Assembly (NCBI GenBank): GCA_929200535.1 | Contig: CAKMZV010000002.1 | Span: 11,537-75,536 of the forward strand | DNA from: an uncultured Gammaproteobacteria bacterium | GTDB taxonomy: Bacteria; Pseudomonadota; Gammaproteobacteria; CAKMZV01 | Direction: 5' to 3' | DNA length: 64,000 nucleotides | Shown: piece by piece, positions 2,009 through 63,092 of the stretch | Position numbering within the stretch: position 1 is the first letter of the stretch | How the letters are laid out: the number at the start of each line of letters is the position of its first letter | Translations under genes and position numbers: made by a program | The notes under the pieces: generated by a model | Told to the model about the DNA's origin: nothing | Database searches by the model: none | The model's input: the letters and a program-made list of their open reading frames with translations, nothing else

Positions 2009-2637
2009 TAACCATTAACTAATATAAAATACTTTGATTTCTATTATTTACCCTACTTTGAGACCTTTGCACAAAAGATATGACAAGGTCTCACTTTTTA
2101 TAAATACATTTACTCAAAACATCATCAAGAAGAGCGACCTTATATAAATTCAGCAAATTTCTCTACATTTTACAAGATTTACTACCTAAATTCCTCTAAA
2201 ATCCTCTATCTAAAATCCGAACAAAATATTTATTTCACTGTTTTGATGCTTTTAAATTCCCCTTTCCTTTTAATGTATCTAATGTATGGCTATTTTTCTC
2301 TTAATTTCAATATATTCTATTTTAAACCATTATTTGCAAAAAATACTTAATAAAACACTTTAATTTTATTTTTTTTATAATTGAAAACCAAACAAAAAAT
2401 TATAAAAGTTGTTATTATGCTTACAAAATAAAATAACAAAAATTGTCGCTACTTGTCGCTAAAAGTCAATTTGACAATTTATAAAAACTTAAATTTGCTT
2501 AATAAACGTAAAAGAAGAAGAAAGCAGATTAAAATTGATAAGGTCATCTCGAATGATAAAGAGAAAACTTCTGCTTTATGGATTATCTAACTCTTTGATA
2601 ATCGCTTCTGCCTCATTTTTCCAACATTAACAACACT

Positions 2638-17314: not shown

Positions 17315-17410
17315 GAGACCTTTACACAAAAGATATGACAAGTAAAAAAGTAAAAAATCGCTCTGATTTTTATTCGCAAGTGCTTCAAACGCTGTTACTC
17401 TATGGTTCGT
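17315..17410. repeat. Truncated MITE copy between gspC and gspD
   Basis: GAGACCTTTACACAAAAGATATGACAAGTAAAAAAGTAAAAAATCGCTCTGATTTTTATTCGCAAGTGCTTCAAACGCTGTTACTCTATGGTTCGT matches one end plus internal block (reverse orientation) of the full copies. Confidence 0.88.
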
Positions 17411-29750: not shown

Positions 29751-30447
29751 AGATTTTGGAAAAAAAGAAAAGGTGTTGAACTTCGCCAGTAATAACTACC
29801 AACTAACCAGACCCCGAAAAGTGGGTGCAGTTATGGAATTGATAAGAGAGTGCCAACCAAAATCGTTACGGGATTGGGAAAAGTTTTACTTTAAAAAAGC
29901 TTTCTCTAAAAGAAAAAACCCGTACAAAATGACTCCTCAAATTTTGGATGAACTTGGAGAAAGGCTTTTTGCTAAAATTACAGAAATCGTAATACCAGAC
30001 TGGACTTCTGCATTTAATGACTTAACAGAACAAGACTGTAGGGACTATATCTACGAGGTAACACTAGTGCGTACATTTGATGGTTTTCTAACAGAAAAAT
30101 CGGTAGTCAATGACAAACTTGCTAAGCAGTTTCCAAAAGTTGTTTTTGAAGAAAGTGATAGTGAATTAGATCACTCCGGAGATGTTGATTACCTTGGTAA
30201 AGTTGGCGACAAAGCTTTTGGACTACAAATAAAACCTATAACTGCTAATGCAAATTTTGGAAACTATAAACCTACCGATCGAATGAAATCACATTTTGAA
30301 GACTTCAAAAAAATATATGGAGGAAATGTTTTTGTCGTTTTTTCAAAACGTGAAGGAGATAAAAAACAAATCGAGAATGAAAAAGAACTTCTTAACGAGA
30401 TAGAAACCGAAATTAAACGATTAGAAGAATTACAAAATGAACTTTGA
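29731..30447 (+). CDS. Putative type II restriction endonuclease (MjaI-like, PD-(D/E)XK variant)
   Basis: Overlaps the methyltransferase 3' end; SELDHSGDVDYLGKVGDKAFGLQIKPITANANFGNYKP contains D-x(n)-Q-x-K; overall resembles the MjaI restriction-enzyme family from memory. Confidence 0.72.
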   Translation: MSKKQAKDFGKKEKVLNFASNNYQLTRPRKVGAVMELIRECQPKSLRDWEKFYFKKAFSKRKNPYKMTPQILDELGERLFAKITEIVIPDWTSAFNDLTEQDCRDYIYEVTLVRTFDGFLTEKSVVNDKLAKQFPKVVFEESDSELDHSGDVDYLGKVGDKAFGLQIKPITANANFGNYKPTDRMKSHFEDFKKIYGGNVFVVFSKREGDKKQIENEKELLNEIETEIKRLEELQNEL

Positions 30448-30524
30448 TATTATCTCAGCGATTGACCTAAAAGAAGAGCGATGTTGGTTTACAACTTCTT
30501 AAAAACTTTGTTGAAACAATTTAA
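30437..30524 (+). pseudogene. Chimeric scar: hisA 5' fragment fused to hisH 3' fragment
   Basis: 30437-~30477 matches the start of hisA at 31994 (one mismatch in the first 40 nt); 30478-30524 matches the hisH 3' end 28393-28439 (7 mismatches in 47 nt, both ending in TAA). Confidence 0.9.
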
Positions 30525-30570
30525 CTCTTAAGAATATTACATAGAAAGAATACTATTCTTAAAACATATT

Positions 30571-30866
30571 GAGGCCTTTTGTAAAAGTATGGCACAAAAA
30601 ACGTTTTTACTCTTGGCGAGTTTACGAGCCTTAGAGTAACAGTGTTTGAACTGCTTGCAGGTAAAAGAAAAAAGATAAAAAATTGTTCTGATTGAGGCGT
30701 GAAATGAAGCTAATACGTCCGTCTTTGCAAATTTCACAACACAAAAAGCGTTTTTACTCTTGGCGAGTTTACGAACCTTAGAGTAACAGCGTTTGAGCCG
30801 CTTGCGGATAAAAATCAGGGCAATTTTTTACTTTTTTACTTGTCATATCTTTTGTGCAAAGGTCTC
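30571..30866. mobile_element. Full-length MITE-like element copy 1 (296 bp), TSD ATATT
   Basis: GAGGCC...GGTCTC ends; subterminal inverted motifs ttttgtaaaagtatggca / tgtcatatcttttgtgcaaa; flanks catatt|GAGGCC and GGTCTC|atattg; >90% similar by eye to 43239-43535. Confidence 0.88.
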
Positions 30867-30889
30867 ATATTGTTAAGTTGGTGTAAAAA

Positions 30890-31988: not shown

Positions 31989-31993
31989 AAAAA

Positions 31994-32740
31994 ATGAACT
32001 TTGATATTATCCCAGCGATTGACCTAAAAGAAGGGCAATGTGTTCGTCTGAAACAAGGGCGGATGGAGGATGCTACGGTTTATCATAAAGACCCCACCGT
32101 TGCCGCAAAAAAATGGTTAGAAGCAGGTAGCCGAAGATTGCATATCGTCGATCTTGATGGTGCTTTTGCCGGCAAGCCTGTCAATCTTGATATTATCTAT
32201 CAAATATGTCGGGAATGCCCCAGCCTCGAGATTCAAATTGGTGGCGGTATTCGCCAAATGCAAACAATCAAGGATTATCTTTCGGTGGGAGTGAAATACT
32301 GTATTCTCGGAACCAGTGCAGTTAAGGAACCCGATTTTGTTGCTCAAGCAAGCGAAGATTATCCTCAACAAATTATTCTTGGGGTTGATGCTAAAGATGG
32401 CTGGGTTGCCCTTGAGGGATGGGATGAGGCAAGCAGCCTTAAAGCCAGTGAGTTGATTTTACGCTTTGCCAAGCAACCTATCGCCGCGGTGATTTACACT
32501 GATATTCAACGAGATGGAATGCTTCAAGGGGTGAATTTAGAGGCAACCATTGAACTTGCCCAACAAAGCTCTTTTCCAATTATTGCCTCTGGTGGCGTTA
32601 AGGATAGTGAAGATATAAGGCAACTACTCACGGCTCACCCTAATATTCAAGGGGTTATTGCCGGTCGTGCATTATACAGCGGTGATTTGGTGCTTTCGGA
32701 TACTCTTGAGCTTGTTTCCAATACCGCAAATACAAAATAA
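31994..32740 (+). CDS. hisA: Phosphoribosylformimino-5-aminoimidazole carboxamide ribotide isomerase
   Basis: [65 protein letters not shown]. Confidence 0.97.
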
Positions 32741-36061: not shown

Positions 36062-36094
36062 GAGATCTTTGCAAAAAAGATATGCCAAGGTCTC
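36062..36094. repeat. 33-bp minimal MITE copy
   Basis: GAGATCTTTGCAAAAAAGATATGCCAAGGTCTC. Confidence 0.8.
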
Positions 36095-37326: not shown

Positions 37327-38637
<1,311 letters not shown>

Positions 38638-43212: not shown

Positions 43213-43238
43213 TTATTCTCGGGCTTCGCTAATAATTA

Positions 43239-43535
43239 GAGACCTTTGCATAAAAGTATGGCACAAAAAACGTTTTTACTCTTGGCGAGTTTACGAGCCT
43301 TAGAGTAACAGTGTTTGAACTGCTTGCAGGTAAAAGAAAAAAGATAAAAAATTGTTCTGATTGAGGCGTGAAACGTAGCCAATACGTCCGTCTTCGCAAG
43401 TTTCACAACACAAAAAGCGTTTTTACTCTTGGTGAGTTTACGAACCATAGAGTAACAGCGTTTGAAGCGCTTGCGAATAAAAATCAGGGCAATTTTTTGC
43501 TTTTCTACTTGTCATATCTTTTGTGCAAAGGTCTC
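43239..43535. mobile_element. Full-length MITE-like element copy 2 (297 bp), TSD AATTA
   Basis: GAGACCTTTGCATAAAAGTATGGCA...TGTCATATCTTTTGTGCAAAGGTCTC; flanks aatta|GAGACC and GGTCTC|aatta. Confidence 0.92.
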
Positions 43536-43537
43536 AA

Positions 43538-43831
43538 TTAGCCTAACCAATTTTTATAAGATTCTAAGTCGTATAATTCGGTGTAGCCTAAGCCGCGCAA
43601 TAAAGATGCCGCTTTTTTGCTTCGACTACCACTACGACAAAATAAAACGATTGGCGTAGCTTTATCCTCAGATAAAACTAAAGAAAAATCCTCTAAAACA
43701 CGATCTAAAGGAAGATTTAATCCGCCCACTTTTGTTTCATTATATTCTTCTGGAGTTCGCACATCGATAAGCTGTGCACCCTCTGCCACCAATTTTTTTG
43801 CTTCTGTGTAATTAATAATTTTTGCATCCAT
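43538..43831 (-). CDS. Rhodanese-domain protein
   Basis: AQLIDVRTPEEYNETKVGGLNLPLDR, IVLFCRSGSRSKKAASLLRGLGYTELYDL. Confidence 0.9.
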   Translation of the reverse strand: MDAKIINYTEAKKLVAEGAQLIDVRTPEEYNETKVGGLNLPLDRVLEDFSLVLSEDKATPIVLFCRSGSRSKKAASLLRGLGYTELYDLESYKNWLG

Positions 43832-46031: not shown

Positions 46032-46064
46032 GAGTCCTTTGCACAAAAGATATGACAAGGTCTT
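46032..46064. repeat. 33-bp minimal MITE copy, TSD ATTAT
   Basis: GAGTCCTTTGCACAAAAGATATGACAAGGTCTT; flanks attat on both sides. Confidence 0.88.
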
Positions 46065-52004: not shown

Positions 52005-52037
52005 GAGACTTTGTCATATCTTTTGTTCAAAATTCTC
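52005..52037. repeat. 33-bp minimal MITE copy, inverted and degenerate
   Basis: GAGACTTTGTCATATCTTTTGTTCAAAATTCTC; flanks agtat / agcat. Confidence 0.78.
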
Positions 52038-63006: not shown

Positions 63007-63092
63007 GAGACCGTTGCAAAATGTAAAAAAACGAGAAAAAAGTAAAAAATTTCTCTTTTTTCTTTCGCTTCCTTGCATTTTGCAACGGTCTC
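63007..63092. repeat. Second palindromic MITE-like element (86 bp, 17-bp perfect TIRs)
   Basis: GAGACCGTTGCAAAATG...CATTTTGCAACGGTCTC; flanks atcta / gtcta. Confidence 0.85.

Follow-up and report, generated by a model that had tools for sequence, protein, structure and literature searches.

Introduction

A 64-kb stretch of DNA of an uncultured gammaproteobacterium, referred to here as the window, is part of contig C2 in a genome of 1.97 Mb and 50 contigs, and contains two long non-coding repeats together with several much shorter relatives. These repeats raise the question of what kind of element they are, how they were inserted, and which transposase moved them. We hold with high confidence that they are copies of a non-autonomous IS5-type MITE of the ISAba23/ISNme1 group; the elements comprise 33–298 bp, are non-coding, and contain no transposase frame. 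The family is new as a family and ordinary in kind.

Copies in the Window

The coordinates of the copies are collected in Table 1. The two copies of about 297 bp (30571–30866 and 43239–43535), described in a preliminary account as nearly identical, share 96% identity over 286 nt; both are indeed non-coding, with inverted ends and the perfect 5-bp repeats ATATT/ATATT and AATTA/AATTA, respectively. The exact duplications ascribed to the minimal 33-bp copies at 2060–2092 (ACTTT/ACTTT) and 46032–46064 (ATTAT/ATTAT) are likewise present, and of the three near-match duplications reported, those at 38605–38637 and 52005–52037 stand, whereas the element at 63007–63092 belongs to a different family with GAGACCGTTGCA ends. 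Two copies are added to the earlier list: a truncated one, from 17315, and one of 33 bp at 36062–36094. The micro form at 38605–38637 contains the stop codon of the open reading frame (ORF) that precedes it (37669–38628). With at most two mismatches, GAGACCTTTGCA occurs 17 times in the window, versus 5.2 expected and 12 in the largest shuffle.

Table 1. Repeat copies and associated features in the 64-kb window.
Feature	Position	Strand	Basis
297-bp composite MITE copy, BAB form	43239..43535	+	sequence, BLAST against own genome, class typing
Target-site duplication AATTA, left	43234..43238	.	sequence
Target-site duplication AATTA, right	43536..43540	.	sequence
Left 69-bp module B in the 297-bp copy	43260..43328 (approximate limits)	+	alignment with 159-bp copies
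Right 69-bp module B in the 297-bp copy	43410..43478 (approximate limits)	+	alignment with 159-bp copies
296-bp composite MITE copy, mutated left end (GAGGCCTTTTGT)	30571..30866	+	sequence, direct repeat
Target-site duplication ATATT, left	30566..30570	.	sequence
Target-site duplication ATATT, right	30867..30871	.	sequence
33-bp micro form, duplication ACTTT	2060..2092	-	
33-bp micro form, diverged, without duplication	36062..36094	-	
33-bp micro form, duplication ATCTT/ATCGT (1 mismatch)	38605..38637	-	
33-bp micro form, duplication ATTAT	46032..46064	-	
33-bp micro form, diverged, duplication AGTAT/AGCAT (1 mismatch)	52005..52037	+	
Truncated copy lacking the left end, with the right end and a portion of module B	17315..17410	-	
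86-bp palindrome, second related MITE-like family, ends GAGACCGTTGCA	63007..63092	.	

The second MITE-like family, with ends GAGACCGTTGCAAAA, is represented by the window element at 63007–63092 and by C9:25844–26004 in the same genome, and an IS5 element on a Desulfolutivibrio plasmid (L199) has GAGACCGTTGCA ends, as in this second family, and a 5-bp duplication. Elsewhere in the window, the beginning of a hisA-like ORF (31991–32041) recurs at 30434–30484 as a 51-bp copy (94%) that lies shortly before the MITE at 30571 and may mark a rearrangement; positions 2–604 contain two tandem units of about 300 nt that are 75% alike.

Composite Architecture

Alignment of the 297-bp copy with the 159-bp copies reveals two 69-bp insertions at fixed places. 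The commonest form is a 159-bp core, termed A, and a 69-bp hairpin module, termed B, is found at one or two fixed sites within it; the 297-bp element of the preliminary description is thus the largest composite, and the basic unit is the 159-bp A. A 150-bp unit B with the same ends as A also occurs, and the forms measure 159 bp (A), 150 bp (B), 228 bp (AB or BA), and 297 bp (BAB). Among the typed copies, 25 are A (159 bp and near), 5 are B (150 bp and near), 9 are AB, 10 are BA, and 6 are BAB, with a few of odd length. A folds as one long, near-perfect hairpin, and the B modules fold as separate hairpins. Module B was also considered as an independent repeat and rejected: 39 of its matches are located in paired elements, and the other 17, which include two short ones at C6:772 and C5:85055, belong for the most part to copies whose ends are mutated or missing. 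Recombination between A and B, or template switching, at short homologies would yield the 228- and 297-bp composites, the order of whose formation we infer. At the end of contig C28 (L024:1501–1836), tandem truncated MITE units of about 94 bp, each starting with GAGACCTTTGCATAAAAG, run off the contig end.

Abundance, Target Duplications, and Siting

The exact 12-mer GAGACCTTTGCA occurs 203 times in the genome, and whole ends with at most three mismatches are found genome-wide 122 times for the left end (GAGACCTTTGCATAAAAGTATGG) and 129 times for the right end (GAGACCTTTGCACAAAAGATATGACAAG); the reversed controls gave 0 in both searches. The family comprises about 125 copies, roughly 1% of the 2-Mb genome. 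Duplications and siting were scored in stretches of this genome totaling about 375 kb, chosen around elements, in which the ends of 70 elements were paired. Exact 5-bp duplications flank 31 of these 70 copies, versus 1.2 on average and 6 at most when right flanks were dealt at random, and no exact duplication of 6–9 bp was found among them; the matching of flanking 5-mers thus persists in a larger sample. Mutation or recombination could be the cause in the 39 copies without an exact duplication. The duplicated 5-mers are A/T-rich, with A as the first base in 27 and T as the last base in 24 of the 31, and the target consensus is roughly A-W-N-W-T. Because the element begins with GAG, a preceding T and a following A complete a TGA stop at both borders. 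When scored in the rejoined empty site, 65 of 68 copies with enough flank are located outside ORFs of at least 120 aa, compared with 26% of random positions (74% fall inside such ORFs), and the copies are tolerated mainly between genes.

Furthermore, a filled and empty site can be compared in the Thiotrichaceae metagenome-assembled genome (MAG) M17 (L126), in which one MITE is nested in another with TATTC on both sides, and sister copies without the nested MITE read CCTGATTCTTCGTATATT, with a single copy of the target, as the preliminary description had anticipated for empty sites. Together with the 5-bp duplications in the larger sample, this pair bears out its proposal of transposition-like insertion of an element with inverted ends. 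Within the approximately 375 kb of this genome, the search for a paralogous empty site returned one weak candidate only (C13:46490 versus C5). No MITE copies were found in 55 class-level relatives or in a DNA search of a plasmid collection; the 18-mer is present in seven viral contigs.

Probable Parent Element and Transposase

An IS5-family transposase resembling that of ISAba23 very probably mobilized the copies. ISAba23 belongs to the IS5 family and has a length of 1249 bp, 16-bp inverted repeats, and a 5-bp duplication (PMC4110982), and ISNme1, with ends GAGACCTTTGCAAAA, has been proposed as the parent of the ATR MITE (PMC4596501). The MITE ends, GAGACCTTTGCACAAA, match the terminal inverted repeats of ISAba23 and of an IS in the Thiotrichaceae T2 MAG, which read GAGACCTTTGCACGAA, and the 5-bp length of the duplication is common to the MITE (31 of 70 exact) and ISAba23, two plasmid copies of which are flanked by TAATA and TATGA. 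The T2 IS is 1193 bp long, with perfect GAGACCTTTGCA ends extending to GAGACCTTTGCACGAAAG and an open 328-aa transposase. Exactly the same 12-bp ends are found in a 1196-bp IS of H. haemolyticus (L112), which contains a transposase fragment (DUF772, 1e-17; IS5_4, 1e-25), and Thiomicrorhabdus has two 1254-bp IS copies with matching ends. Intact IS5 transposases with these ends thus coexist with a 159-bp MITE in two genomes, T2 and Thiomicrorhabdus; matching flanking 5-mers are absent from the three IS copies in these two genomes.

The type of the donor transposase is one that we infer from other genomes, none having been found in the assembly of this organism. A genome-wide search with three IS5 models returned no IS5 transposase above the cut-off, and the repeats themselves have no coding capacity, so that an autonomous IS5 element was rejected. 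PF01609 had no match in the genome, NF033581 had a single chance-level match (0.1), and PF05598 matched only by chance and in the N-terminal stretch of a protease; tblastn with the T2 and Thiomicrorhabdus transposases against about 375 kb of the genome found no transposase. A 1636-bp pair of ends on C11 was rejected as the parent IS because it encloses ordinary genes and no transposase. Several contigs of the 50-contig draft end within these repeats, and a multi-copy IS could therefore be missing from the assembly. The protease mentioned above is the CPBP protease of a JDVT-CTERM system (MrtJ; L175:865–1953 on C28), the N-terminal part of which resembles an IS5_1 transposase (NF033578, 5e-16) and is possibly a domesticated transposase fragment fused to the protease.

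The following course of events is proposed. An ISAba23/ISNme1-type IS5 transposase (NCBI model transpos_IS5_4) would recognize the ends GAGACCTTTGCA(Y)AAA over approximately 12–16 bp, excise the element, and insert it at A/T-rich 5-bp targets, and gap repair at the insertion would generate the 5-bp duplication. The transposase would have acted in trans, and may now be gone or missing from the draft.

Comparison with Known Families

The ends of ISAba23 differ from those of the MITE at one or two positions over the first 15–16 bp and its duplication is likewise of 5 bp, although it is 1249 bp long with a transposase gene, whereas the MITE is non-coding and 33–298 bp long. ATR of Neisseria, for which ISNme1 is the suggested parent (PMC4596501, Table 2), is likened by its GAGACCTTTGCA ends and short non-coding derivatives, although about 19 copies are reported (PMC4596501) compared with about 125 here. 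BrickBuilt of Porphyromonas gingivalis also has GAGACCTTTGCA-type ends and is tied to IS5 elements, but it is characterized by a 23-nt minisatellite and irregular duplications (PMC4596501), in contrast to the hairpin, 69-bp modules, and regular 5-bp duplications of the present MITE; membership in BrickBuilt was rejected since the 23-nt minisatellite is absent and the internal repeats are two 69-bp modules. A further likeness in form is found in the 159-bp MITEs of Thiomicrorhabdus and Thiotrichaceae MAGs (L122, L132, L136, L156), which share the ends, the hairpin, and the length to the base (one is 158 bp), but show 56–70% identity and have their own inserted modules of 52 to about 130 bp. The papers found do not describe these MITEs, and a literature search for the end sequences returned only BrickBuilt and a Kingella primer.

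Origin of the 33-bp Forms

Eleven 33-bp copies share the same AAG junction, and five are identical to the last base; a perfect 5-bp duplication is found at 7 of the 11 and a 4-bp duplication at one. Other micro forms are single ones of 38, 40, 23, and 21 bp, with an AGAAT duplication at the 38-bp form and an ATAAA duplication at the 23-bp remnant, and micro forms of 23–41 bp, some with duplications, occur in other genomes. In a Desulfobacteraceae MAG (L202, L208), two 37-bp palindromes have the same arms and different 5-bp centers, and both are flanked by AATAT.

The 33-bp copies may be deletion products rather than independent insertions, and repeated internal deletion after insertion is slightly more likely than movement of a 33-bp unit. 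We lean toward regarding them as footprints of inserted full elements whose interior would have been deleted through slippage from one short direct repeat to another at the hairpin base, for which the nearly precise excision of Tn10 is an analog. The retained target duplications, the 23-bp (ATAAA) and 38-bp (AGAAT) remnants, the assorted one-off micro forms of other genomes, and the folding of full copies into very long hairpins are all consistent with such footprints, although the same 33-bp product would then have arisen 11 times with other short homologies available. Alternatively, and as a more tentative proposal, a single internal deletion at AAG (ACAAG/CAAAG) could have produced a mobile 33-bp unit that was then spread by the transposase. 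This would account for one junction in 11 copies against single forms of the other lengths, for perfect duplications of different targets in 7 of the 11, for the single, mutated occurrence of the 23-bp product that a longer microhomology would predict, and for the 36–37-bp micro forms with duplications in the Desulfobacteraceae MAG. However, one end of the unit retains just 8 of 12 end bases, 33 bp seems too short for bringing two ends into synapse, and repeated internal deletions in inserted elements would also account for these facts.

Hairpin Conservation and Strand Preference

The 159-bp copies of this genome, Thiomicrorhabdus, T2, and M17 form an almost gapless alignment at 56–70% identity. 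In the hairpin common to the four genomes, 95.5% of cells are paired and 24 of 52 pairs have changes on both sides, far above column-shuffled and slid controls, although kinship among the sequences inflates such counts, and any structure built from the very rows on which it is scored will outperform its slid versions on that account. Furthermore, one strand folds better in 32 of 32 copies, a preference seen in the 159-bp copies of this genome and of L122, L132, L136, L156, L149, and L126. One-sided departures from pairing in the genome's own copies comprise 14 G.T versus 4 A.C (one-sided sign test, 0.015); each of the four genomes shows symmetric mismatches rich in G.T, Thiomicrorhabdus weakly so, and some G.T sites are inherited because they are shared.

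Length, compensatory pairs, and the bias of G.T over A.C have been kept through 30–44% divergence in the four genomes, and selection of the 159-bp unit as a single-stranded hairpin, fixed in both length and strand, is conceivable, if unlikely. The orientation of the copies shows no bias relative to genes, which argues against a role as read-through RNA and would place such selection in the life cycle of the element itself; a terminator role was rejected, as the copies are not enriched between convergent genes. That the repeats are instead a structural RNA or DNA repeat used by the host, REP- or NEMIS-like and spread without transposition, is highly improbable: the 24 compensated pairs, the consistently more stable strand, and the strong intergenic bias would suit it, but the 5-bp duplications at unrelated sites and the nested pair in M17 demonstrate transposition, and gene-orientation bias, convergent-gene enrichment, and any Rfam match at the element are all lacking. 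Copies of the transposed MITE may nevertheless have a secondary host use.

Perspective

The family is a clean high-copy example of an IS5-type MITE, the parent type of which can be named from the ends, the duplication length, and neighboring genomes although no parent was found in the assembly. Three of its features deserve to be retained: the strand-biased hairpin, the record of composites, and the 33-bp forms. How composite MITEs form can be read from the series A, B, AB, BA, and BAB, and the repeated 33-bp forms pose a testable choice: either palindromic elements were shortened by deletion after insertion, or an element this small was transposed. The hairpin is constant in length and strand-biased across genera, and its selection, if true, would point, for example, to a role of the folded strand in excision, replication, or transposition of the 159-bp unit.
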